Source: Thermodesulfobacteriota bacterium
GTDB lineage: Bacteria; Desulfobacterota; Deferrisomatia; Deferrisomatales; JACRMM01
DNA: 32,786 bases
Direction of reading: 5' to 3'
Assembly (NCBI GenBank): GCA_040756475.1
Contig: JBFLZB010000031.1
Location: 1 to 32,786 of the forward strand
The notes beneath the pieces are model-generated. The model was not told the origin of the DNA. It did not search any database and saw only the letters and a list, made by a program, of their open reading frames with translations. Numbering within the stretch: the stretch's first letter is position 1; each line of letters starts with the position of its first letter. Positions 1 through 24,306 of this stretch are shown here, piece by piece. The position numbers were made by a program, and so were the translations under genes.

Positions 1-786
1 CTGCGGGAGGGCGGGCAGACTCGCGACGTGCCGGTCCGGGCCGTCTCCGACCCGGCGGCCGCCGGGCCCGCGGACCTCGTGCTCGTGATGGTGAAGGCCC
101 CCCACACGGCCTCGGCGGCGGGCTCCCTGGGTCCGCTCCTGGGGCCCCGCACCGCGGTCCTCACCCTCCAGAACGGCCTGGGGGCCGCGGACGTGCTCGC
201 CCGGGCCCTGGGGGCGGAGCGCCTCCTGGTGGGGGTCACCGCCCAGGGGGCGACGCTCCTCTCCCCCGGCGAGGTCCGCCACGGGGGCACCGGCGAGACG
301 CTGCTCGGACCCTTCGGCCCTCAAAGCCCCGACCCGGAGCCCTTCGCCGCGGCCCTCTCCGGCGCCGGGCTTCCTGCCCGGGCCGTGGCCGACCCCTGGC
401 CCGCCGTGTGGCGCAAGCTCGCGGTGAACTGCGGCATCAACGCGGTGGCCGCCCTCACGGGGCACCGCAACGGCCGGATCCCCGAGATCCCGGAGGCCGC
501 CGCAGTGCTCTCCGACGCGGTGCGCGAGGCGGCGGCCGTGGCCCGCGCCGCCGGGGTCAACCTAGGGGACCCCACGGCCCTGGTCGAGGCGGTCCTCGCC
601 GTAGCCCGGGCCACCGGCGCCAACCGCGCCAGCATGGGCCAGGACGTGGACGCCCGGCGCCCCACCGAGATCGACTTCATCAACGGCGCCGTGGTCCGGG
701 AGGGAGAGCGCCGCGCCGTCCCCACCCCCGTCAACCGCACTCTGACCCGGCTCGTGAAAGCCCTGGAAGCGGGGTTTCGGGGTTAG
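1..786 (+). CDS. panE: 2-dehydropantoate 2-reductase (ketopantoate reductase), 5' truncated by window edge
   Basis: This is the C-terminal part of a ketopantoate reductase, which reduces 2-dehydropantoate to pantoate with NADPH in pantothenate and CoA synthesis in the cytoplasm. The frame is open from the first base, so the start codon and the N-terminal GxGxxG Rossmann motif lie upstream. About 45 residues are missing compared with a family length near 300. Visible family signatures are the LTLQNGLG loop after the nucleotide fold, the WRKLAVNCGINAVAALTG helix carrying the catalytic lysine, and the substrate-binding EIDFINGAVV stretch near the C-terminus. The gene ends in TAG and is followed by a strong GC hairpin. 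The downstream minus-strand maturase frame overlaps its last 56 bases in antisense. Broader 2-hydroxyacid or opine-type members share this fold, so the exact substrate is likely rather than proven. Confidence 0.88.
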   Translation: MREGGQTRDVPVRAVSDPAAAGPADLVLVMVKAPHTASAAGSLGPLLGPRTAVLTLQNGLGAADVLARALGAERLLVGVTAQGATLLSPGEVRHGGTGETLLGPFGPQSPDPEPFAAALSGAGLPARAVADPWPAVWRKLAVNCGINAVAALTGHRNGRIPEIPEAAAVLSDAVREAAAVARAAGVNLGDPTALVEAVLAVARATGANRASMGQDVDARRPTEIDFINGAVVREGERRAVPTPVNRTLTRLVKALEAGFRG

Positions 787-1621
787 TGTCGGGTTGAAGG
801 CCCCCTGACATCAACCCTCTCCCCCGCTCGGGGGAGAGGGGGTGCGGATCGGAGCCCCGCGGCTCCCACGGTGCTTCCCCCCTCCTGATTTGCGCGTAGT
901 TGCCCCCGATCCCGAGGGGCACCGCACCGGCTACTTCCTTGAGGTTGCGCAGGATCGCCCCAAAGCTCCCCCTTCCGGACCGCAGGGGGCGGCTTCGGTC
1001 GTGGACAGGGGGCGGGCCGTCGAGGGTGACCTTTGCCGAGGCGAGGCCCAGGGGCCGGAGCTCCTCCACCACCTGTCGGGTAAGGAGCGAGCCGTTGGTC
1101 ACGAGGGTGAAGCGGAACCGGGCTCCCCGGGCAGCGGCGCCCGCCTGGAGCGCCCGGGTGATGCGGCGGAGCAGGGGCAGGTAGAGGAGCGGCTCTCCGC
1201 CGTAGAAGTCCACCGTGAGGAGCTTCTTGCCGGGGCGGAGCCGCCCGAGGAGGAAGTCGCACAGCCGTTCGGCGGTGGCCTCTTCCATGGCTCCGGCCCG
1301 GCCCAGGGGCTTCTCGTAGCAGTAGGGACAGGCGAAGTTGCAGGCGAGGCCGAGGAAGACCGCAGCGGTCACCCCGGGATCGGCCAGGTTCACGGCTTCC
1401 AGGTAGCCGAGCACCCGGCGGCGCTCTGCTTCGGCGTCGGCCACGAGGATGCCGGCCCGCGCCAGGGGCTCAGCCGCCGCTTCCGGAACCTCTCCGCCCC
1501 GGAGACGCCGCCACAGGTCCTGCGACACCCGCACCGGCGCTCCCTTGCGCGTGGCGAAGAGGAGGCAGCGATCCGGTCGGCCCGGATCCGGAAGCGGCAC
1601 CACGTAAGGGGATAGGACCAC
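731..1621 (-). CDS. Radical SAM peptide maturase (geopeptide type), C-terminally truncated
   Basis: Radical SAM enzyme probably acting on the small peptide encoded just upstream. The 4Fe-4S motif CNFACPYC has cysteines at residues 94, 98 and 101, and the SAM-binding GGE motif is at 141-143. The N-terminus (PYVVPLP, LFATRKGAPVRVS) looks like the wing domain of peptide-modifying SPASM enzymes, and I recall this pattern from geopeptide maturases of Geobacter. Such enzymes normally run to about 400-450 residues with a cysteine-rich SPASM end. Here family-like sequence stops near residue 243 (LGIGGNY, about base 893). The remaining 53 residues are Pro/Arg/Gly-rich, pass through the intergenic hairpin and end antisense to the neighbouring gene. 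The GTG start at 1621 has an in-frame TAG four codons upstream and no clear ribosome site. It is probably a pseudogene or, less likely, a core-only enzyme. Confidence 0.75.
   Translation of the reverse strand: MVLSPYVVPLPDPGRPDRCLLFATRKGAPVRVSQDLWRRLRGGEVPEAAAEPLARAGILVADAEAERRRVLGYLEAVNLADPGVTAAVFLGLACNFACPYCYEKPLGRAGAMEEATAERLCDFLLGRLRPGKKLLTVDFYGGEPLLYLPLLRRITRALQAGAAARGARFRFTLVTNGSLLTRQVVEELRPLGLASAKVTLDGPPPVHDRSRPLRSGRGSFGAILRNLKEVAGAVPLGIGGNYAQIRRGEAPWEPRGSDPHPLSPERGRGLMSGGLQPDTNPETPLPGLSRAGSECG
815..840. terminator. 11-bp perfect GC hairpin between convergent genes
   Basis: CCCTCTCCCCC (815-825) pairs perfectly with GGGGGAGAGGG (830-840) around a 4-base loop. It lies 29 bases after the ketopantoate reductase stop and could end transcription from that side. 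There is no T-run on either strand, so it may act as a hairpin barrier rather than a classical intrinsic terminator. The truncated minus-strand maturase frame reads straight through it, which supports the view that the frame here is not original coding sequence. Confidence 0.55.
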
Positions 1622-1677
1622 CGCCGAGCGCTAGCTCGATACGGAATGACGCACGGCCCGATGTGCCTGCGCTTCCG

Positions 1678-1794
1678 TCACGTTTCCGGCCCGGTCTTGA
1701 ACGCCGAGGGACCGGTCGAACAGCAGGCAGCCGCCTGGGCTACCTCCTCCACCTCCAGCCCTTCCTCCAGAATTTCGACCACGTCCTCTCCCAT
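1678..1794 (-). CDS. Small Cys-Cys peptide, putative RiPP precursor (geopeptide-like)
   Basis: A 38-residue peptide encoded immediately upstream of the radical SAM gene on the same strand. The ATG at 1794 is chosen because AGGAGG sits 6 bases before it; an upstream in-frame ATG at 1824 has GGAGG only 2 bases away. The first 26 residues are acidic (DVVEILEEGLEVEEVAQA), as in many leader peptides recognised by modifying enzymes. The last part (AAACCSTGPSAFKTGPET) holds the only two cysteines, adjacent to each other, and is the likely core. This layout is typical of ribosomally made, radical-SAM-modified peptides. What the peptide does is unknown. Its partner enzyme appears truncated, so it may no longer be matured from this locus. 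Confidence 0.7.
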   Translation of the reverse strand: MGEDVVEILEEGLEVEEVAQAAACCSTGPSAFKTGPET

Positions 1795-1925
1795 GTCGTT
1801 CCTCCTTCTGGCAAGGGTCGCCATCACCTCCGAATGTGAGGTGGATCGGCAGGTGCTCTGGAAAACCGGAGAGAGACTGGAACCTCCCCACGAGATTGCC
1901 GCCTGCTGCGCTGATCGCTCTCGTG

Positions 1926-3845
1926 TCAGAAACGCACGCGGGCCCCGGCTTCGACCCACCGGCCGGTGGTCTCCCGATCGGTGTCGGTCTCCTGATCCCC
2001 GTCGAAGAGGTTGTGCACGGTGAGGAAGAGGTCGGTCTCGATGCGCGAAAGGAAGACGAACGTCTTGGAGGCGTTTAGGTCCCAGAGGAAGTCATTGTGC
2101 CTTCCTTCCTCGAAACCCGGCCCAAGGTCCCACCACACGTAGTGGCCGAACAACTGGGCCCTCCAGGATGCCGCCCGGTAGTGGAGCCCCAGGTTGACCT
2201 GGTGCTGGTCCTGCTCTCCCCCCACCCCCGACTTCTCGATGCGCACGAACGCAAATCCGGCCTGGCTGGACAAGCCGCGCCAGGCGGCGGTCTCCGCTTC
2301 GGCCTCGAAGCCGGTGCGCCAGACCCGGCCTCGATTCACGAAGATGAGGTTCCCGGGGGTAATGGGGGACTCATCGAGCTCCATGGAATCCTTCGCTTCG
2401 TGCCGAAAGACCGTGGCCTTCAACCAGGCGAAGCCGGACATCGCGGTCTCGGCGCCGGCCTGATAGGACCAGATCTGTTCGGGATCCAGGTCGGGATTGG
2501 GGTCGAGAGCCAGGCCTCCACCGGACAGGGCGGCCAAGGGGGGGCTCGCAAAGCCGCGAGCGACGGAGGCCCGAACCACCGTGCCGGGGGCCGCCCGCCA
2601 GGCAGCGCCCAGGCTGGGGCTGGTGAACGAACCGGACCGGGTGCTGTCGTCGAAGCGGACGCCCGGGGTGACCGCCACCGGCCCGAGGCGAATCGTGTCG
2701 TTGAAGTACACCCCCCAGAGGTCGATGGTGGGGTCTACCCGAAAGCCGCCGCCGTCCAGGAACTCGCCAAAGCGGTCGCTCACCGTGAGCTCGCCTCGGC
2801 GGTAGTCCGCCCCCAGCACCAGCGCATGGCGGCCCACCGCCCAGGCCAGCCGCCCCTGGACTCCATACTGGGTCTCGTCATTGACCCTTTCCAGGAGGAA
2901 CTCGCCTTCGGGCGCCCACGTGCCGTCACCCCAGGCCAGCTGGCCCTGACGGTAATCGCGGCGAAAAGCAGAAACGTGCAGGCTGGCGTCGTTGGCAAGC
3001 TGAGCATCGGCAGCGACCCTCCCAAAGGCGGAACGAAACTCGTCCCGAGCGAGGACACCGTTGCTTTCGAGCCGCCCCAGATCCACCTCGGGTTCCGTGT
3101 AGGCGCCGCTCACGGTCAGGTGCGCCCGGGGCCCAAGCTGAGCCTGGACCTTACCAAACCCGTTTCGGGACTCGAAGCCCCCCGTCTTGGGCCAATCCGC
3201 CCGCTGCCGTTGACCCTGGAAGTAGTACCCCGTGGGGCCGAGCCCCCCGGCCACCTCCGCCCGGCCGTCGAAGGCGTCGCGCTCTCCGTAGGACGCCGCG
3301 ACTTCCCCCGAGGGCACGGCCGAGCCTCCCGCTCTCTTGGTGAACACATTGATGACCCCGCCCAGCGACGAGCCCCAGGAGGAGGATGCAGGACCCTTGA
3401 TGATCTCGATCCGCTCGATGATGCCGACGGGGATCGCCTCGACGGCCGATCCGCCATTGAGGGCGTTCCAGGGGACGCCGTCCACGACCACGGTCACATG
3501 GCGCTCGTCCAGGAGAGGTGGGCGGCTGCCCCCCGACCCCTGGATGTGGGGCAGCACGATGGTTCCGAAGTGAACACCGAAGGGCTGCACGAACACCCCC
3601 GTAACCCGGTTTAGCACCTCCGCCAGGGTGTGGGCGTTCATGTCGCGGATCTCGGCGGCGGTGACCACCGCCACGTTCTCGGCCACCTGGGAGAGGGGCT
3701 TGGGGCTGCGGGTGGCCGACTCCACGAGCTCGTCGCCGGAGAAGTAGAGGTGCTCGAAGGGGTCGCCGGGCGCGGCGAAAGCAGGCGCCGGGAGGCACAG
3801 GAGGGCGAAGAGACAGGCGGCGCGCAGGGAGCGCAAAGGCGTCAC
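1926..3845 (-). CDS. TonB-dependent outer membrane receptor
   Basis: A 639-residue outer membrane beta-barrel receptor of the BtuB/FepA class, powered by TonB-ExbBD. Residues 1-24 form a signal peptide ending AFA. A TonB-box and plug domain follow (about residues 40-170), with the plug hallmarks AEVLNRVTGVFVQPFG, VVVDGVP and IERIEIIKGPASSSWG. The rest shows alternating barrel strands and the chain ends in phenylalanine, as expected for barrel insertion. The GTG start at 3845 follows AGGAGG with 5 bases spacing. The ligand cannot be read from sequence: no transporter, siderophore or cobalamin gene is adjacent. The only close same-strand gene downstream is the small peptide gene (131 bases away), so a link between receptor and peptide is possible but speculative. 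Confidence 0.93.
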   Translation of the reverse strand: MTPLRSLRAACLFALLCLPAPAFAAPGDPFEHLYFSGDELVESATRSPKPLSQVAENVAVVTAAEIRDMNAHTLAEVLNRVTGVFVQPFGVHFGTIVLPHIQGSGGSRPPLLDERHVTVVVDGVPWNALNGGSAVEAIPVGIIERIEIIKGPASSSWGSSLGGVINVFTKRAGGSAVPSGEVAASYGERDAFDGRAEVAGGLGPTGYYFQGQRQRADWPKTGGFESRNGFGKVQAQLGPRAHLTVSGAYTEPEVDLGRLESNGVLARDEFRSAFGRVAADAQLANDASLHVSAFRRDYRQGQLAWGDGTWAPEGEFLLERVNDETQYGVQGRLAWAVGRHALVLGADYRRGELTVSDRFGEFLDGGGFRVDPTIDLWGVYFNDTIRLGPVAVTPGVRFDDSTRSGSFTSPSLGAAWRAAPGTVVRASVARGFASPPLAALSGGGLALDPNPDLDPEQIWSYQAGAETAMSGFAWLKATVFRHEAKDSMELDESPITPGNLIFVNRGRVWRTGFEAEAETAAWRGLSSQAGFAFVRIEKSGVGGEQDQHQVNLGLHYRAASWRAQLFGHYVWWDLGPGFEEGRHNDFLWDLNASKTFVFLSRIETDLFLTVHNLFDGDQETDTDRETTGRWVEAGARVRF

Positions 3846-4016: not shown

Positions 4017-4079
4017 TCCAAATCGAAATCGATATCGAAATCGACGTCGAGTCCGATCGCGATTTCGATGTCGATTTGG
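4017..4079. repeat. Hexamer-rich imperfect inverted repeat (tcgaaa/tcgata units)
   Basis: About 63 bases built from six-base TCGATN/TCGAAA-like units. The tract begins CCAAATCG and ends CGATTTGG, so it is also an imperfect inverted repeat that could fold as a hairpin. It is much less GC-rich than its surroundings. It lies in the 296-base gap between the response regulator stop and the TonB receptor start. A related tract lies at 7426-7503, on the other side of the same three-gene signalling operon. Apart from this tract I see no gene in the gap. Confidence 0.8.
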
Positions 4080-4141
4080 AAGGGAAGCCGCAACGGGGAG
4101 CCGTTCGTCACTTGCCTGTGGCCCGGGGTTCGCGAGGGTAC

Positions 4142-4696
4142 CTACAGCTTCCGTGCGCACTCGGCGCAGCAGCCGTGGGAGACCTGGACCCCCGCCTTGC
4201 GCACCAGGTACTCCTCCAGGGGCATCCAGGGGCCGGAGCCGGGTTCGACGCCGGCGTCGTCGCGGATGCGGCGGCAGCCGGCGCACACCGGGAGGATGTC
4301 TTCGTAGAGCTTGAGCTTGCGGCGCAGGTCGCGCTTCTCGGCGCAGCGGGCCACCCGCAGGAGGAGCTCGTCGTAGTCGAAGGGCTTGGCCAGGTAGTCC
4401 TCGGCCCCCAGCCGCAGGGCGTCGATGGCCGAGTCCACGTCGCAGTACCCCGAGACGATGACCACGCAGGCGTCGGGGTCGCGCTCCTTGGCCTCCCGGA
4501 GCACCGCGACGCCCCCCACCTCCTCCATCACGAGGTCCGTGACCACCACGTCGAAGCGCTCCCTCCGAAGCCTCTCCACGGCCTCGGCCCCGCTCTCCAG
4601 GGCCGTCACCTCGTACCCCGCGGCGGCGAGCACCCGGGCCAGCGTGCGCAGGGCCAGGGGCTCGTCGTCCACCAGGAGGATCTTCTTTCGCGTCAC
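4142..4696 (-). CDS. Response regulator with C-terminal Cys4 (zinc-ribbon-like) domain
   Basis: A 184-residue response regulator, last gene of a signalling operon. The receiver domain (about 1-122) has the acidic pair D10/D11, phosphoacceptor D54 in VVVTDLVM, S82 in VIVSGY and K104 in LAKPF. There is no DNA-binding or enzyme output domain. Instead residues 134-184 carry CxxC at 138/141 and CxxC at 177/180, with the motifs LPVCAGCRRIRDD and SHGCCAEC. This is a short cysteine domain known at the ends of many receiver and PAS proteins, where it may bind a metal; its role is not established. The GTG start at 4696 overlaps the kinase stop by 4 bases (GTGA), so the two are translationally coupled. 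It probably receives phosphate from the kinase and acts through protein contacts. Confidence 0.92.
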   Translation of the reverse strand: MTRKKILLVDDEPLALRTLARVLAAAGYEVTALESGAEAVERLRRERFDVVVTDLVMEEVGGVAVLREAKERDPDACVVIVSGYCDVDSAIDALRLGAEDYLAKPFDYDELLLRVARCAEKRDLRRKLKLYEDILPVCAGCRRIRDDAGVEPGSGPWMPLEEYLVRKAGVQVSHGCCAECARKL

Positions 4697-6291
4697 GGCT
4701 GGCTCGCTCCCTCGATGGGCAGGGTGACGGTGAAGGCCGCGCCCCTGCCGGGCTCGCTTGCGACCTCGATCCGGCCCCCGTGGCGCCGGACGATGCCGTA
4801 GGAGACCGAGAGGCCCAGGCCGGTGCCCTTGACCGCCGGCTTGGTGGTGAAGAAGGGGTCGAAGATCCGCTCCCGGTGCTCCGGAAGGATGCCCCGGCCT
4901 GTGTCCTCCACCCGCAGCGCCACCTCGGCGCCCCGCCGCTCGGCCCGGACGCGGACGGTCCCCCCCTCGTCCCCCACGGCGTCCCCCGCGTTGGTGAGCA
5001 GGTTCAAGACCACCTGCTTGAGCTGATCTTCTACCCCACGCACGGGGGGTACGTCATGGGCGAAATCGACCTCCACCGCGATCTTCTTCCGGCCGAACTC
5101 CTTGGCGCACAGCAGCACCATGGCATCCACGGCGCGCCGCAGGTCCACGGGCTCGGCGCGCCCGGAGGAGGGCCGGCTGAAGCTCTGGAGGTCGCGCACC
5201 AGCCGGCGCAGGCGGTCGCATTCCGCCACGGCCATCTCGGCGAGCTCCCGGTCCTCGGTGCCCAGGGCGGGGGAGGCCAGAAGCCCCCGGAGCACGTTTC
5301 GGATGCCGAAGACCGGGTTGTTGAACTCGTGGGCCACCGAGGCAGCCAGGCGGCCTGTGGCGCTGAGCTTTTCAGCATGGACAAGCTGGCGGTAGGTCTC
5401 TTCGAGCTGGGCCGTGCGCTCGGCCACCCGCTCCTCCAGGCGGTCCCGGGCCTCCCGGAGCTCGGCGGTGCGGGCCTCGACCCGCTGCTCCAGGTCCTGG
5501 CGCAGGGACTGAAGGTCCCCGAAGGCCCGGTCGAGGGACTCCACCAAGCCCGAGTAGGCGCCCCGGAGCAGGCTCACGTCGTCTCGGGGCTCGCTCACCG
5601 GAACCCCCCGGGCCCGCACGGTCTCGGTGAGCTCCCGCAGGGGCCGGGTGGCCGCCCGGATGAGCCGGTGGGCCACCGCCGCCCCCAGGAGGAGGAAGAC
5701 GATCCCCGCCAGGGCGGTTCGCACCAGGATCTGGTGCATACCCTCGCGCACCGGCGCCTTGGAGAAGCGCACGGCGGCGTACCCCACCACGGCCCCCGGG
5801 GGCTCGGGCTCCGGCGGGTAGTAGAGCGCGTCCTCGGACCCGGGGGGAACGGCCGTGAGCACCGGCGCCCAGAAGGTGAACGAATCCGGGCCCTCGAGGC
5901 GCCCGGGACGCTCCGGGGGATCCAGGACCGACGCGGGTTTCGGACCCAGGCCGCAGGCCGCCTCGGCTGCCTCGGCCCGGCCCACCCGGGCCAGGAGCCC
6001 CCCGCTCCGGTCCAGGGCGCAGGCCTCCAGCACGTAGTCGTGGAGCAGGGCCTCCGCCAGCTCCCGGCGCAGCCCGGCGCGGTCTTCCGCGAAGAGGGCC
6101 AGGCGAGCGCCCTGGGAAACGAGGGCCGCTACCACCTGGCCGGCGTCCTGCGCATGGTACAGAAGGAGACTGCGCTGGGCCTGCACCGCGAGGGCCCCCA
6201 GGCAGACCGTGAGGGCCGTCAGGAGCGCCGCGACGGACAGCGAGATGCGAAGCCCCAGATCGGGGCCGGCCCGGAGGCCCAGTGGTTTCAT
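4693..6291 (-). CDS. Membrane sensor histidine kinase
   Basis: A 532-residue sensor kinase. Two membrane helices (about 14-38 and 188-210) frame a periplasmic region of about 150 residues, followed by a HAMP-like linker and a long coiled coil (about 258-310). The HisKA domain has phosphoacceptor H321 in SVAHEFNNP. The ATPase domain shows the N box (NLLTNAGDA, N434), G1 (DTGRGI from 463) and G2 (GTGLGLS from 489). The EFNNP H-box and KPAVKGTGLGL loop are usual for kinases paired with regulators lacking DNA-binding domains. The ATG at 6291 lies 1 base after the stop of the binding-protein gene, and the kinase stop overlaps the regulator start. The arrangement suggests the periplasmic binding protein presents a ligand to this kinase. 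Confidence 0.95.
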   Translation of the reverse strand: MKPLGLRAGPDLGLRISLSVAALLTALTVCLGALAVQAQRSLLLYHAQDAGQVVAALVSQGARLALFAEDRAGLRRELAEALLHDYVLEACALDRSGGLLARVGRAEAAEAACGLGPKPASVLDPPERPGRLEGPDSFTFWAPVLTAVPPGSEDALYYPPEPEPPGAVVGYAAVRFSKAPVREGMHQILVRTALAGIVFLLLGAAVAHRLIRAATRPLRELTETVRARGVPVSEPRDDVSLLRGAYSGLVESLDRAFGDLQSLRQDLEQRVEARTAELREARDRLEERVAERTAQLEETYRQLVHAEKLSATGRLAASVAHEFNNPVFGIRNVLRGLLASPALGTEDRELAEMAVAECDRLRRLVRDLQSFSRPSSGRAEPVDLRRAVDAMVLLCAKEFGRKKIAVEVDFAHDVPPVRGVEDQLKQVVLNLLTNAGDAVGDEGGTVRVRAERRGAEVALRVEDTGRGILPEHRERIFDPFFTTKPAVKGTGLGLSVSYGIVRRHGGRIEVASEPGRGAAFTVTLPIEGASQP

Positions 6292-6292
6292 G

Positions 6293-7294
6293 CTACTCTA
6301 GCCACTCGAAGTGCAGGGAAGCCGGGCGGACCAGCTCGAGGCCGAGTTTGGCCGCCACGGCGCGGTTTGCGGTCACCGACAGAAGAACCGGCGCCTCGGG
6401 AACGGCCCTCCGGGGGGACTCCCCGGCCAGGAGGCGCCGGGCGAGCCGCGCGGCCTGGGCGGCCATGCCCCCGGGCTCGGCGGCAATGGTCAGGGTCGCC
6501 CCCCGCTCCGCGTAGGGCCGGGAGAAGGCCAGCACCGGGACGCGGTGACGCTGGGAAATCTGGACGAAGGAGGCCGTCCCATCGGGGGTAGCAACGGTGA
6601 GGTCGGGCAGGAGCCACAGCAGGTCCACCCGGCCGGCGAGCTCGCCCAGGCGGGAGGGCACCTCGCGGCTCTCCCCCACGGGGAGGGCCGTGAGCTCGAG
6701 CCCCGCCTCCCGGGCGGCCGCCCGAGCCTGGTCCACCAGAGCGCCGGTGCGTTGGGGATCGTAGACGAGGCCCACCCGGCGCAGGTTGGGGAGGATCGTG
6801 CGCAGGACCGCCAGGGTGGCGGCCGGGGCGACGTCGAGGTCGACGCCGGTCACGTCGGGCCGGGCCCGCACCTCGGGGGGCACCCCGGGAGCCAGAAGAT
6901 GGAGGAGCGGCGTGGGGGGGCGCTGGGGCAGTTCGGCGGCGGCCAGGAGCGCGCTGCGCCCGAGGGCCAGGACCAGCGCGGGCCGCCGGTCCCGAAGGGC
7001 ACGGGCCAGCCCCTGGGGGCCGGCTTCCGTGAGGACGAGCTCGGTGTAGGTGTGGGGCTCGATGGCCTTGGGCCCGGCGGCCGGCAGGCGCGAGAGCTGG
7101 GTGCGGAACTCCGCCAGGGCCTGCTCGTAGGGGGGCAGCCGGGCGCTGAGCACGGCGAGGATCTCGGCGGCCCGGGCGGGCACCGCCGACAGCGCGAGGA
7201 CCGCGAGGGCGCAGACCAGCAGGCGCAGCGCCCGAAGGGCGCTCGCCCCCGCGAGCCCGTGCCCCTGCCTCCCTGCGGTCTTGCGCTGCGCCAT
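6293..7294 (-). CDS. Periplasmic binding protein (ABC_sub_bind-like), probable sensor partner
   Basis: An exported protein of 333 residues with a signal peptide ending ARA (about residue 42). It resembles the uncharacterised ABC substrate-binding family (ABC_sub_bind): an N-terminal lobe (EILAVLSARLPPYEQAL), LVLALGRSAL, the NLRRVGLVYDP hinge at mid-protein, and a C-terminal VTANRAVAAKLGLEL helix that is common in this family. No permease or ATPase gene is nearby. It is the first gene of an operon with a histidine kinase and regulator, so it more likely senses a small molecule than serves uptake. I chose the ATG at 7294, which gives a normal signal peptide after a GGGGGA stretch. A GTG at 7324 would add ten Arg/Gly-rich residues. 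The ligand is unknown. Confidence 0.82.
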   Translation of the reverse strand: MAQRKTAGRQGHGLAGASALRALRLLVCALAVLALSAVPARAAEILAVLSARLPPYEQALAEFRTQLSRLPAAGPKAIEPHTYTELVLTEAGPQGLARALRDRRPALVLALGRSALLAAAELPQRPPTPLLHLLAPGVPPEVRARPDVTGVDLDVAPAATLAVLRTILPNLRRVGLVYDPQRTGALVDQARAAAREAGLELTALPVGESREVPSRLGELAGRVDLLWLLPDLTVATPDGTASFVQISQRHRVPVLAFSRPYAERGATLTIAAEPGGMAAQAARLARRLLAGESPRRAVPEAPVLLSVTANRAVAAKLGLELVRPASLHFEWLE

Positions 7295-7425
7295 CCGTCC
7301 CCCGCCGCCGTTTCTCCGCCTCACCCGGGCAATTCAGGTCCCCCGGAACCGCGAACCCTCTGGGCTTCCGGACTCGCGGCGCTCCTCCCAAACCCTCGAA
7401 GCGACGCTCCTCCTCCTGCCATTCC

Positions 7426-7503
7426 TCGATCGGGATCGGGATCGATTTCGATTTCGATAGCGATTTCGATTTCGATAGCGATCCCGATAGCGATAGCGAT
7501 TTT
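7426..7503. repeat. Hexamer tandem repeat tract (tcgatt/tcgata/gcgata units)
   Basis: About 13 consecutive six-base units, mostly TCGATT, TCGATA, GCGATT and GCGATA, occupy the middle of the 262-base gap between the aminotransferase stop and the binding-protein start. The composition is far less GC-rich than flanking genes. It resembles the tract at 4017-4079 in unit sequence but is organised as direct repeats. No gene or clear promoter was recognised in the rest of the gap. Confidence 0.85.
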
Positions 7504-7556: not shown

Positions 7557-8912
7557 TCAGCGAAGCTCCGCCGCGAGCGCGTGGGCAGCCCGCTCGTAGG
7601 CGTCGAGGAGGGCGGCCATCTCCTCGTCGCCGTGGGCGGCCGAGAGGGCCCCGCCCCCGTGCACGGCGAAGACTCCCTGGTTGAGCAGCGCGATCCGAAG
7701 CTCCCGGTCCTTGACCTCGGAGCGGGTCTTGGCAGCCACGTCCGCGGAGCTCTCGAGGAGGCCGTCGTCGCCCCGCAGGACGTGGGTCATGACGAGGCTG
7801 CCTGCGCCGGTGCACGCGGCCGGGAGACCTGCCGCCCGGAAGCGCTCCTCGATGCCCCGGCGCAGCGCCTCGCCCCGGCGCTCCAGTGTGGTGTAGAACC
7901 CCTCGCCGGCCCGGGAGAGGGCTTCCAGGGTAGCCAGGCTCGCGGCCATGGAGAGGGGGTTGCAGGAAAAGGTTCCCCCGCCCACCAGCACCGGGCGATC
8001 CGGGAGAGGGGCCTGGCCCGGTTGGGGATACGCCTGGGGGTTGGCGACCTCGAGGATCTCCCGCCGGCCGCCGTACACCCCCAGCGGAAGCCCGCCGCCG
8101 GCGATCTTCCCCAGGGTGGTGAGGTCGGGCCGCACGCCGTAATGGTCGGCCAGGGTACCGTAGCGAAAGCGGAAGCCCGTGATGATCTCGTCGAAGATGA
8201 GGACCGCCCCCTCCTCGTCGCACACCTCGCGAAGCGCCGTCAGGTACTCGGGCCGGGCGGGCAGGAAGCCCCCGGCGCCCAGGAGGGGCTCCACGATGAT
8301 CCCCGCGAGCTCCCCCCGGTGGCGCTCCGCCACCCGGAGAGCCCCTTCCACGTGGTTGAAGGGGATGACGTCGACCCCCTGCTCCCGGGGGGCCCGCTGG
8401 CCCGGGCCCTCCGGACCCAGGAAGGGCGCGCTCCCCGCGTAGGAGAGGTCGGTGGAGGCCCCGTGCCACCCCCCCTCCGCCTTGAGGATCCACGGGCGCC
8501 CCGTGAAGCCCCGGGCCAGGCGCACGGCGTACATGGCGGCCTCGGTGCCGGTGGTGCAAAAGCGCATCTCCTCCAGGGAGGGGGAGGCGTCCCGGAGGCG
8601 CTCGGCGAGCGCGATCTGGAGCTGGGAGGGCATGCCCCAGTGCCACCCCCCCTCCAGGGTGCGCGCCAGGGCTTCCCGCACCTCGGGGAAGGCGTGCCCG
8701 AAGATCAGGGCGTAGTGCCCCATCCACAGGTCCAGGTAGGTATTGCCGTCCACGTCGGTGAACCGGGCCCCCGCCGCCCGGGCCGGGTACACGGGATGGG
8801 GCCGAAACGCCCGGACGTTGTGGCAGATGCCCCCCGGAAAGAGCTCCGAGGCCCTCCGGTGCAAGGCCTCGGATGTGGGGGTGAGGCGACGGTAGGTCTC
8901 GAAGAGGTTCAT
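7557..8912 (-). CDS. Class III aminotransferase, glutamate-1-semialdehyde aminomutase-like
   Basis: A 451-residue PLP enzyme of the class III aminotransferase family. The PLP lysine is K269 in TTLGKIAGGGLPLG, and the cofactor-binding aspartate is D241 in FDEIITGFR. The phosphate-binding TTGTEAAMYAVRLAR segment (120-134) matches GSA aminomutases, and the N-terminal SELFPGGICHNVRAF is also aminomutase-like. True HemL, however, belongs with heme genes and is usually near 430 residues. This protein sits alone, with an extra segment near 280-305, so it may act on another amino acid or ketone. The ATG at 8912 is the start giving a family-like N-terminus; the preceding sequence is a repeat-derived leader with no good Shine-Dalgarno site. 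The specific substrate is uncertain. Confidence 0.88.
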   Translation of the reverse strand: MNLFETYRRLTPTSEALHRRASELFPGGICHNVRAFRPHPVYPARAAGARFTDVDGNTYLDLWMGHYALIFGHAFPEVREALARTLEGGWHWGMPSQLQIALAERLRDASPSLEEMRFCTTGTEAAMYAVRLARGFTGRPWILKAEGGWHGASTDLSYAGSAPFLGPEGPGQRAPREQGVDVIPFNHVEGALRVAERHRGELAGIIVEPLLGAGGFLPARPEYLTALREVCDEEGAVLIFDEIITGFRFRYGTLADHYGVRPDLTTLGKIAGGGLPLGVYGGRREILEVANPQAYPQPGQAPLPDRPVLVGGGTFSCNPLSMAASLATLEALSRAGEGFYTTLERRGEALRRGIEERFRAAGLPAACTGAGSLVMTHVLRGDDGLLESSADVAAKTRSEVKDRELRIALLNQGVFAVHGGGALSAAHGDEEMAALLDAYERAAHALAAELR

Positions 8913-9046: not shown

Positions 9047-9943
9047 TCATCCCCACCGCCACAGGGAGATGATGATCAGCACGCCCAGGGCGACGAAGAG
9101 GTTGACGTAGGCCATCACGTAGAAGACGCGCACCACGGGCTCGCTGGCCCGGTCGCCCTCCTCCCCCTGTGCGGGGTGCGCGGGGAAGCCATCGAGCTTC
9201 TCGGCACCGTGGGGGGCTCCGGCCAGGGCCTCTTCCAGGTCCTGCCCGGCCTGGTGGCGGCGAAAGTGGCTTCCGTCTTTCCAGCGCGGGCTCTTGGTGA
9301 CGTCGTAGATCCGGTCGCCCACCTTGACCCAGGAGGGCCGGCCTTCGCGCCCGTCATTGGCCTGCCACCCCGCCCGAAGCTTCTTCAACCTGGGACTGAT
9401 GACGAGGGTGGCGACCGCGGCCGACGCCACCAGGAAGAGGAACAGCCCGATCTTGACCAGGAGGAGCTGCCCCGACGCGCTCGCGATGAGGTTGGCGGGG
9501 GTCTGGAAGCGCAGTTTCGTCAGGGGCACCCCGGTTGCCGCCAGGAGGAGCACCGACGCCCAGGCGATGCGCATCTCGGTGCGGGGCAGCCCTCCCAAGG
9601 CATACTTGGGCCGCAGCACCACGTGCACGTAGAAGATGGTGCCGAACCACATCACGGCGGTGGTCAGGTGCACGAAACCGAGAAAAAAGCGAAGCACCTT
9701 GGTTCCGGCGGAGAGCGAGCGCACCCGCACGGTCTCCGGGATCGGCCACTGGCCTCCCCCTGCGGCAAAGGCCTCGCCCAGGGGAGTCAGGGGGCCCCCG
9801 CCGGAGGGGTCTCGGTGGCACGCGTCGCAGTCCTGGCCCGTGCGGTCGGCGTACTCGTCCGTGGCGGAGGAGACGCCGGCCCCGGCAGACAGCAGGAGGG
9901 CGCAGACGAGCAGCGCGAAGAGGAGCGGCGGGAGCCTTCCCAT
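9047..9943 (-). CDS. Membrane heme protein: c-type heme motif, CopD-like core, cytochrome b5-like domain
   Basis: A 298-residue envelope protein with three parts. A signal peptide or anchor (1-27) is followed by a c-type heme site CDACH (C39, C42, H43), placed outside the membrane. The core has three helices (about 85-107, 126-142, 157-182) with motifs of the CopD-like family, such as HLTTAVMWFGTIFYVHVVLRP. A domain of about 55 residues (205-256) then matches small cytochrome b5-like heme/steroid-binding proteins: WVKVGDRIYDVTKSPRW, H227, H230 and APHG (H245). A final helix (273-295) closes the chain. The ATG at 9943 follows GGAGG with 4 bases spacing. The gene diverges from the crotonase gene. 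A redox or heme-relay role is likely, but no partner is adjacent. Confidence 0.82.
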   Translation of the reverse strand: MGRLPPLLFALLVCALLLSAGAGVSSATDEYADRTGQDCDACHRDPSGGGPLTPLGEAFAAGGGQWPIPETVRVRSLSAGTKVLRFFLGFVHLTTAVMWFGTIFYVHVVLRPKYALGGLPRTEMRIAWASVLLLAATGVPLTKLRFQTPANLIASASGQLLLVKIGLFLFLVASAAVATLVISPRLKKLRAGWQANDGREGRPSWVKVGDRIYDVTKSPRWKDGSHFRRHQAGQDLEEALAGAPHGAEKLDGFPAHPAQGEEGDRASEPVVRVFYVMAYVNLFVALGVLIIISLWRWG

Positions 9944-9970
9944 GATGCCTCCGTCGAGAATGACCGCCGA

Positions 9971-9999
9971 CTTGTAGCACTTGGACGTTCCGGTCGCAA
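9971..9999 (-). promoter_or_regulatory. Possible sigma-70 promoter for the CopD/b5 gene
   Basis: On the minus strand TTGCGA and TACAAG are separated by 17 bases, each matching four of six consensus positions. The -10 lies about 28 bases before the ATG at 9943. The only support is position and match to consensus. Confidence 0.35.
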
Positions 10000-10010
10000 C
10001 CGTGGGCCGG

Positions 10011-10040
10011 TTTACGCATCCCGAGGCGCCGTGGTAGCTT
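10011..10040 (+). promoter_or_regulatory. Weak possible promoter for the crotonase gene
   Basis: TTTACG and TAGCTT are separated by 18 bases, 34 bases before the ATG at 10074. Matches to consensus are partial (four and three of six), so this is a weak call. Confidence 0.25.
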
Positions 10041-10073
10041 GCCGGCATGTCCCGCTTTCCCCGAGGAGGCGCC

Positions 10074-10850
10074 ATGAGCTATGCCGATCTGACCCTCGAC
10101 CGCGACGGCGAAGTGGCCGTCCTCACCCTGAACCGCCCCGCCAAGCGCAACTCCCTCTCGCTCCACCTGATGGAGGAAGTCCTGGCCGCCCTGGCCGAGG
10201 TGGGGGCTGACCCGGGGGTGGGGGCGCTGGTCATCCGGGGCGCTGGGCCAGCTTTTTGCGCCGGACACGACCTGGGGGAGATGACCGGGCGCGACCTTCC
10301 AGCCTACCGCCGCATCTTCGACACCTGCACCCGGATGATGGACGCCGTGCAGGCGCTTCCCCAGCCGGTGATCGCCCAGGTGCACGGCATCGCCACAGCC
10401 GCGGGGTGCCAGCTCGTGGCCACCTGCGACCTCGCGGTAGCCGAGGAGGGGGCCCGGTTTGCCACCCCCGGCGTGAAGATCGGCCTCTTCTGCTCCACCC
10501 CCATGGTCCCCCTGACACGGGCCGTGGGGCGCAAGAAGGCCCTGGAGATGCTGCTCACCGGCGAGTATCTCGACGCCCACGAGGCCCGGGCCTTCGGCCT
10601 GGTGAACAAGGTGGTCTCCCCCGCGGCCCTGGCCGACGACACCCTGGCCCTGGCCCGCAAGGTCGCGGCCGCGAGCCCGCTGGTGCTCGGCCTCGGCAAG
10701 CAGGCCTTCTACGCCCAGGCCGACCAGCCCCAGCCCCAGGCCTACGCCTACGCCAAGGAGGTGATGAGCCTCAACGCCCTGGCCGCCGACGCCCAGGAAG
10801 GCATCTGCGCCTTCCTGGAGAAGCGAAAGCCCGAGTGGAAGGGGCGGTGA
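10074..10850 (+). CDS. Enoyl-CoA hydratase/isomerase family protein, ECHDC3-like
   Basis: A 258-residue crotonase-fold protein. The acyl-CoA oxyanion-hole segments are present (FCAGHDL at 61-67; HGIATAAGCQLVATCDLAVA at 104-123). The two glutamates that catalyse hydration in classical enoyl-CoA hydratase are replaced: Q113 stands where GGGCE has Glu, and G133 (TPGVKIGL) where the second Glu is expected. The GLFCST motif and the C-terminal EGICAFLEKRKPEW match the vertebrate ECHDC3 type as I recall it. The protein probably binds an acyl-CoA, but ordinary hydratase activity is doubtful. The ATG at 10074 follows GAGGAGG with 4 bases spacing; an ATG 27 bases upstream lacks that site. Its stop overlaps the next start by 4 bases (GTGA). 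Confidence 0.92.
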   Translation: MSYADLTLDRDGEVAVLTLNRPAKRNSLSLHLMEEVLAALAEVGADPGVGALVIRGAGPAFCAGHDLGEMTGRDLPAYRRIFDTCTRMMDAVQALPQPVIAQVHGIATAAGCQLVATCDLAVAEEGARFATPGVKIGLFCSTPMVPLTRAVGRKKALEMLLTGEYLDAHEARAFGLVNKVVSPAALADDTLALARKVAAASPLVLGLGKQAFYAQADQPQPQAYAYAKEVMSLNALAADAQEGICAFLEKRKPEWKGR

Positions 10851-23118: not shown

Positions 23119-24306
23119 ATGACCGCAATCGACCGGGCCGTTACCGACCGCCTCTGGAACCGCCTGACCAGCCCCCCCGAGCTCATTCAGGTGCTCGTGG
23201 GACCGCGACAGGTGGGGAAGACGACCGCCGCCCGCGCCATCGAGGCGCGCTGGGATGGGCCGGTGCGATATGCGGCAGCCGATCTTCCGCTGCCTCCGGG
23301 GCCCGAGTGGATCGAGACCCAGTGGCAGCTCGCCCGGACCCACATCGGCGACCGCCCGGTCCTGCTCGTTCTGGATGAGGTCCAGAAGGTCTCCGGCTGG
23401 AGCGAGGTGGTCAAGGCGTACTGGGATGCCGATCGGGCCGCCGAGAGGTCGCTCAAGGTCCTGTTGCTCGGCTCGTCAGCGCTCCTGCTCGCCCGCGGGA
23501 CGACCGAGAGCCTTGCAGGACGCTTCTTCCTGCACCGATGCCCCCATTGGACCTTTCCCGAGTGCCGGGCGGCGTTCGGCTGGGACCTGGACCGGTGGCT
23601 CTACTTCGGCGGCTACCCTGGCGCGGCGAAGCTCGCCGACGACGAAGAGGCGTGGCAGGCCTATGTACGCGACTCCCTGATCGAGGCCGTCCTCGCGCGG
23701 GACGTGCTGGCCCTACAGCCGGTCGCGAAGCCGGCGCTCCTTCGCCACCTGTTCGCCCTGGCAGCCCGGTTTCCCGCTCAGATCCTCTCCTACAACAAGA
23801 TGCTCGGCCAGCTCCAGGACGCCGGCAACACTACCACGCTCGCTCACTACCTGCGGCTCCTCGAAACCGCGTACCTCATCACCGGCCTCGAGCGGTTCTC
23901 CGCCGGCGAGGCGCGCAGCCGAGGCTCGAGCCCCAAGCTGGTTCTCTGGAACAACGCCCTCGTCTCCGCCCTCGGCCACCGGAGCTTTGCATCGGCCAGA
24001 GGAAATTCGGCGGCGTGGGGACGGCTCGTGGAGAACGCGGTGGGGGCACACCTGGTGAGCCAGTTGCAGGGCCTGGCCCACGAGGTCACCTACTGGCGCC
24101 ACGCCAACGACGAGGTCGACTACGTGGTGCGGTCGGGAGAGACCCTGTGGGCCCTCGAAGTCAAGAGCGGCCGCCCCGATCGCCCCCCCGGCATGGCCGC
24201 CTTCCGACGCCGCCACCCCGCCGCCCTGCCCCTCGTCGTCGGCTCGGGGGGAATGTCCCTGGAAGAGTTCTTCAGCGAGGACCCGCGCCACTTCCTGCAG
24301 CCATAA
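23119..24306 (+). CDS. P-loop ATPase with C-terminal DUF4143 domain
   Basis: A 395-residue ATPase of the AAA/DUF4143 group. Walker A is GPRQVGKTT (28-36), Walker B VLLVLDEVQK (81-90), and a sensor-like LLLGSSA is at 115-121. The winged-helix middle part (about 190-260) is followed by a C-terminal DUF4143 domain. There D334 (DEVDYVV) and E347-x-K349 (LWALEVKSG) fit a PD-(D/E)xK nuclease-like core. Such genes are usually solitary and patchily distributed, and their function is unknown; horizontal transfer is common. Here the gene stands behind a palindromic element and a leaderless promoter. Its GC content looks slightly lower than that of its neighbours. Confidence 0.88.
   Translation: MTAIDRAVTDRLWNRLTSPPELIQVLVGPRQVGKTTAARAIEARWDGPVRYAAADLPLPPGPEWIETQWQLARTHIGDRPVLLVLDEVQKVSGWSEVVKAYWDADRAAERSLKVLLLGSSALLLARGTTESLAGRFFLHRCPHWTFPECRAAFGWDLDRWLYFGGYPGAAKLADDEEAWQAYVRDSLIEAVLARDVLALQPVAKPALLRHLFALAARFPAQILSYNKMLGQLQDAGNTTTLAHYLRLLETAYLITGLERFSAGEARSRGSSPKLVLWNNALVSALGHRSFASARGNSAAWGRLVENAVGAHLVSQLQGLAHEVTYWRHANDEVDYVVRSGETLWALEVKSGRPDRPPGMAAFRRRHPAALPLVVGSGGMSLEEFFSEDPRHFLQP

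Follow-up and report, generated by a model that had tools for sequence, protein, structure and literature searches.

The 32,786-nucleotide stretch of Desulfobacterota DNA analysed here (the window) encodes a 38-residue peptide that belongs to the geopeptide family in the broad sense, next to a truncated copy of the family's radical SAM maturase and within a conserved set of peptide, maturase, receptor, binding protein and kinase. What is new here is the recurrent module itself, in which a geopeptide is found with a TonB-dependent receptor, a PF04392 periplasmic binding protein and a histidine kinase. From the sequence evidence laid out below, it seems somewhat probable that a geopeptide-type peptide is made, exported, recaptured by its own receptor and sensed, in the manner of methanobactin.

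The geopeptide-type precursor

The precursor and its signals are laid out as follows.

1678–1794, minus strand: geopeptide-type precursor of 38 residues, from translation and profiles (TIGR04229, 17.7 bits against a cut-off of 30)
1726–1794, minus strand: leader, residues 1–23
1681–1725, minus strand: core, CCSTGPSAFKTGPET
1678–1680, minus strand: stop codon of the precursor
1801–1807, minus strand: Shine–Dalgarno sequence AAGGAGG, 6 nt from the ATG, read from the sequence

A preliminary description of this DNA had proposed a 38-residue Cys-Cys frame with an acidic first part and an excellent ribosome site, directly upstream of a radical SAM gene on the same strand, and on each of these points it agrees with what we find. 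Translation of 1678–1794 on the minus strand gives the stop-terminated 38-residue MGEDVVEILEEGLEVEEVAQAAACCSTGPSAFKTGPET, in which the first part is acidic and the adjacent cysteines are residues 24 and 25. The DNA preceding the start reads ...GCCAGAAGGAGGAACGAC-ATG, with AAGGAGG at 1801–1807 and a spacing of 6 nt, and the radical SAM frame (731–1621, minus strand) follows after a gap of 56 nt, against a family median of 62 nt. The same frame is open farther 5', to 93 residues counted from a GTG; the ATG at 1794 is the sole start that both has a ribosome site and is aligned with the starts of the homologs.

As an independent test, an HMM was built from 37 other geopeptide-like peptides located close to the maturases of relatives, and the window peptide was excluded from it. 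With this profile the window peptide reaches 31.1 bits (E=2.4e-7). Across the context loci as a whole, the profile returns 84 matches at E<0.01, most of which are the seed peptides themselves, and none in the same sequences reversed. When the peptide is included in the profile, the whole of its own genome yields two places only, this locus and contig C276. Although the frame is nested in a longer open one, and G+C-rich DNA such as this often contains long frames by chance, the independent profile match, the ribosome site, the family-typical distance to the maturase and the lack of any match in reversed DNA make an untranslated chance frame extremely improbable. We are highly confident that the peptide is real and of the geopeptide type.

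The NCBIfam definition of the family is stricter. Against TIGR04229 the window peptide scores 17.7 bits (E=0.0023), short of the curated cut-off of 30 bits; this model is a narrow one, and at E≤1 it matches 22 of the 38 seed homologs. Alignment shows that G12 and C24–C25 are invariant across the 38 homologs. In the core the conserved part is CC, joined by TGP in the window's own subgroup, and the preliminary suggestion that AAACCSTGPSAFK might be conserved as a whole fails beyond these residues. By the broader profile built here, the peptide carries the (V/I)L(D/E)EG leader, the invariant G and CC, matches with its own sequence excluded, and lies 56 nt upstream of a truncated TIGR04280-type gene. 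The conserved homologs beside radical SAM genes, on which the preliminary description had staked its proposal, are also found: a geopeptide lies within 3.5 kb for 80 of 93 maturases, and 77 of those 80 are upstream on the same strand.

The window peptide thus resembles the TIGR04229/TIGR04280 pair in its acidic (V/I)L(D/E)EG leader, its adjacent cysteines and its place just upstream of a TIGR04280-type gene; it departs from the pair in scoring 17.7 bits where the cut-off is 30, and in having an adjacent maturase that is truncated, at 264 bits where the cut-off is 400. Compared with the Geobacter geopeptides, the spacer between leader motif and CC is longer and the core is CCSTGP. Judged by its sequence, the window peptide is a diverged geopeptide, one expected to work like the others while failing the curated definition. 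At locus L133 of genome G010 (about 8250–8600), tandem geopeptides CCKTGPEALRTPGD and CCKTGPENLRTTGGG stand ahead of one maturase, and L176 carries several near-identical geopeptide copies beside two maturases. In the viral contigs searched, radical SAM matches were distant only (29–31%).

The truncated maturase and the second system of the genome

The maturase end of the locus contains the following elements.

890–1621, minus strand: N-terminal 244 residues of a TIGR04280-type radical SAM/SPASM maturase, with an RRE-like N-terminus and a CX3CX2C barrel as far as strand 5
731–889, minus strand: non-homologous tail of the truncated maturase frame, beyond the alignment break after GIGGNY
815–840: 26-nt palindrome CCCTCTCCCCCGCTCGGGGGAGAGGG at the maturase's broken end, found at three places in the genome, one of them mismatched
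1–786, plus strand: 2-dehydropantoate 2-reductase (PanE/ApbA), convergent and cut by the contig start; outside the system

The local maturase is certainly truncated in this assembly. Its frame matches TIGR04280 with E=2.3e-78 and 264.1 bits, over positions 1–244 of 428 only; membership calls for at least 400 bits over the full length with the SPASM part, a level that the window copy fails to reach and that a paralog on contig C276 passes with 521.9 bits. The radical SAM neighbour of the preliminary description is present on the same strand, but its incompleteness had been missed. The geopeptide-like RiPP layout proposed there likewise stands in part: the precursor does lie beside a TIGR04280-type maturase, as do its homologs in many genomes, but an intact two-gene system is absent here.

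In an alignment with 13 relatives, the window maturase ends after GIGGNY, and a tblastn search with the C-terminal halves of eight relatives gives no significant match in any frame of the window. In the structure predicted for L036, a full-length relative (mean pLDDT 83), the point of the break falls after barrel strand 5. The last barrel unit is lost, together with the entire SPASM part and its conserved cysteines (positions 325, 344, 380, 383, 389, 393 and 409 of relative L017). The remaining 244 residues are stop-free and keep CX3CX2C. Past the break, the frame continues into unrelated sequence that contains the 26-nt palindrome, next to the convergent panE. The genome's other copies of the palindrome are on contigs C100 and C156, and C100 has a longer partial match. 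A frameshift in place of a truncation is out, as tblastn finds no C-terminal half in the window, whereas the frameshifted maturases at L267 and L268, both beside receptors, show both halves. A split gene with its other half elsewhere is out for this assembly, in which no contig carries the missing half.

The genome of the window (G000) has one full-length maturase paralog, on a contig of 4281 bases.

C276 (L002/L126), 1177–2475, minus strand: full-length TIGR04280 maturase, 521.9 bits, with a divergent MFS gene
C276, 4155–4256, minus strand: geopeptide, just inside the contig end

This paralog is 53% identical to the window maturase over their common part, its geopeptide is MEHLDIVVLDEGVEELEIAGPTATCCYTTVSILRA, and the MFS gene lies between the two. 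The receptor expected for the C276 system is absent from the own-genome assembly. The same two systems are found in the related genomes G004, G008 and G010, in which the type A cores are CCKTGP and the type B cores are CCFTS-like. In system B of these three genomes, peptide and receptor are 96–97 nt apart, with the G004 maturase 1.6 kb further off; the system B peptide therefore stays with its receptor. The L015 and L016 maturases (L124, L125) have frames of ~700 residues, in which the SPASM part is followed by an additional C-terminal domain of ~270 residues.

Two accounts of the truncation have to be weighed, each of which we consider unlikely. In the first, the truncation is an assembly artefact: two unrelated stretches were joined at the palindrome, and the maturase is intact here in the living organism. 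The assembly is a draft of 369 contigs (96% complete), the junction repeat has its other copies on C100 and C156, and the receptor expected beside the C276 system is missing as well, all of which are in keeping with a misjoin. However, the common repeat is only about 26–45 nt, short for such an event, and the missing maturase half is on no contig. In the second account, which we regard as no less doubtful, the locus is decaying. The maturase would be a pseudogene in this lineage and the peptide would go unmatured, with the receptor, binding protein and two-component system capturing the geopeptides of others, or similar compounds. Loss of the C-terminal half at a palindrome-bearing junction fits this account, as do the receptor loci without peptide or maturase that are frequent in Geobacter-side genomes, and locus L170 (genome G178), where a truncated maturase lies beside a degenerate peptide with CTC in place of CC. 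Set against this, the peptide frame, its ribosome site and its CC/TGP core are all intact, the 244 leftover maturase residues are free of stops and keep CX3CX2C, and the full-length C276 paralog, at 53% identity over the common part, could act in trans.

With respect to chemistry, the nearest solved relative of the maturase family by sequence is CteB (5wgg, E=9.8e-34), and by fold it is CteB followed by TigE. In the full-length maturase model the N-terminus forms three strands and then helices, as expected of an RRE, the fold comparison having been made with the whole model. CteB, which makes Cys thioethers, combines a radical SAM barrel with an RRE and a SPASM domain (PMC8172795). The likeness to CteB and SCIFF ranthipeptide maturation extends to the full-length relatives, which have all three parts; the differences are another precursor, two cysteines here against six, and a window copy without its SPASM half. 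On the strength of this enzyme kinship, a thioether modification of the geopeptide core, of the sactipeptide or ranthipeptide kind, is most likely. We know of no TonB receptor system for CteB and SCIFF.

The receptor, binding protein and kinase

Four further genes of the module lie upstream of the peptide, all on the same strand.

1926–3845, minus strand: TonB-dependent receptor of the geopeptide-linked subfamily
4142–4696, minus strand: response regulator with a receiver domain and a short Cys-rich tail
4693–6291, minus strand: membrane histidine kinase (HisKA and HATPase_c), overlapping the response regulator by 4 nt
6293–7324, minus strand: periplasmic binding protein, PF04392 (ABC_sub_bind), 1 nt upstream of the kinase

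A TonB transporter (1926–3845) and a periplasmic binding protein (6293–7324) are thus encoded together with the peptide; no DNA-binding domain was found in the response regulator at 4142–4696. The same partners recur elsewhere. Among 89 TIGR04280-type maturase loci, a window-type receptor is present in 81, a PF04392 protein in 74 and a kinase in 69, the last being the softest of these counts because kinases are common. Gene orders vary: the receptor gene may point away from that of the maturase or run in its direction, and the kinase and binding protein may lie on either side. Such variation speaks for a link in function and against the inheritance of a single operon. Among the maturase loci no dedicated exporter or protease is conserved, and an MFS protein is found in only six. 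The idea that the PF04392 protein simply serves an ABC transporter was considered and set aside: the recurrent neighbour families that were examined included no recognisable ABC permease or ATPase. The window also holds intergenic imperfect repeats of the type ATCGAAATCGATATCG (4018–4080 and about 7400–7470), which appear as ID/EI-rich runs in open frames. A CopD copper-resistance-domain protein and an AAA_14/DUF4143 ATPase are encoded at 9047–10075 and 23119–24306, and no test linked either to the geopeptide module.

Co-occurrence was examined in 59 genomes around that of the window by comparing three independent searches: for maturases above the TIGR04280 cut-off, with the geopeptide profile, and for the receptor subfamily at E≤1e-30. 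All three return the same ten genomes (G000, G001, G002, G004, G008, G010, G014, G035, G037 and G043), and each of the 13 receptors in the sample lies about 90–1900 nt from a geopeptide. The window's own genome, at 5.0 Mb, holds four TonB plugs and two PF04392 proteins, so that chance adjacency of receptor and peptide is unlikely.

On the Geobacter side the association is looser. Of 293 genomes around a Geobacter-side one, 108 have the receptor, 102 the maturase and 96 both, a set for which a Fisher p-value overstates the evidence because the genomes are related. Among the Geobacter-side receptors listed, 85 of 111 are within 6 kb of a maturase and 26 are more than 6 kb from any. When 20 such maturase-distant receptor loci were examined, 17 had no geopeptide match and most of these keep the binding protein; one of the other three (L260) is doubtful. 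The pairing of receptor and binding protein is therefore not exclusive to geopeptides, and confinement of the receptor to geopeptide loci, true in the 59-genome sample, is refuted in the Geobacter-side one. The receptor-only loci fit either piracy of a peptide made by others or another ligand.

The receptors nearest to that of the window (51%) belong to CCxTGP or CCxQGP peptides, with the type B receptor next at 46%. Similarity of core and receptor, allowing for the maturase, gives a weak partial correlation (r=0.22, p=0.002); the leader correlates nearly alike (r=0.17, p=0.001), so the core is not singled out as coevolving with the receptor.

The best solved matches of the receptor, by both sequence and fold, are the B12 transporter BtuB and Cir, with which it shares the plug and barrel at about 20% identity. 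These matches, and the receptor–binding protein pairs that occur without a geopeptide, would suit a receptor whose cargo is an unrelated nutrient, for instance a corrinoid or a metal complex, with the geopeptide as an accessory (a regulator, periplasmic chaperone or metal donor) rather than the ligand. We consider this improbable. Besides the low identity to BtuB, the receptor reaches 105 bits against the B12 receptor model, whose cut-off is 599.7 bits, and it falls in a separate, geopeptide-linked subfamily, every member of which adjoins a geopeptide in the own 59-genome sample.

A proposed model for geopeptide capture and sensing

Methanobactin provides a precedent for a peptide with a TonB transporter (MbnT) and a periplasmic binding protein (MbnE) (PMC7558416). 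The geopeptide module resembles it in tying a small ribosomal Cys peptide to proteins of these two kinds, a likeness drawn here from gene linkage and co-occurrence. It differs in its modifying enzyme, which is a radical SAM protein here, in its binding protein, which is PF04392 rather than the OppA-like MbnE, and in its linked histidine kinase and response regulator.

In the model we favour, the maturase of intact relatives, a radical SAM/SPASM enzyme with an RRE-like N-terminus, would bind the acidic V(V/I)L(D/E)EG leader and modify the core, most likely through radical formation of a thioether at one of the two cysteines. The mature product would then leave the cell, possibly metal-bound, and once exported it would be recaptured by its own TonB-dependent receptor. 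In the periplasm, the PF04392 binding protein would report the product to the histidine kinase and response regulator. At the window locus itself, the peptide would either be matured in trans by the C276 paralog or be the leftover of a decaying locus. Metal binding by the two adjacent cysteines is an attractive, putative function that we infer along with the export, re-uptake and sensing. That Geobacter-side receptors occur, and so can work, without a local peptide, most of them keeping the binding protein, counts against this model; in its favour is another locus, L269 (G232:C252), where the maturase is broken by an internal deletion and the peptide, receptor and binding protein are intact.

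Tentatively, we extend the model to the family as a whole. A dedicated outer-membrane receptor and a binding protein–histidine kinase circuit may have geopeptides as their ligands. The whole would be a metallophore or pheromone system, similar to methanobactin and made by radical SAM enzymes, that is widespread among Desulfobacterota (Geobacter and relatives). Every paralogous system would come with a core type and a receptor of its own, and at some loci receptor and sensor would be kept while the peptide or the maturase is borrowed from elsewhere.

A literature search found no paper on geopeptide or TIGR04280, and one combining radical SAM, RiPP, TonB receptor and Geobacter found none either; most subscription journals were outside the reach of both searches, which makes this absence a weak sign of novelty. 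It is the receptor linkage, on which no paper was found, that gives the finding a worth beyond one more member of a named family. The link between geopeptide, receptor, binding protein and kinase yields a testable hypothesis as to what the peptide binds, how it is taken up and what is reported. If geopeptides are metallophores or pheromones, they would be relevant to how Geobacter and other metal-respiring bacteria acquire metals and communicate.
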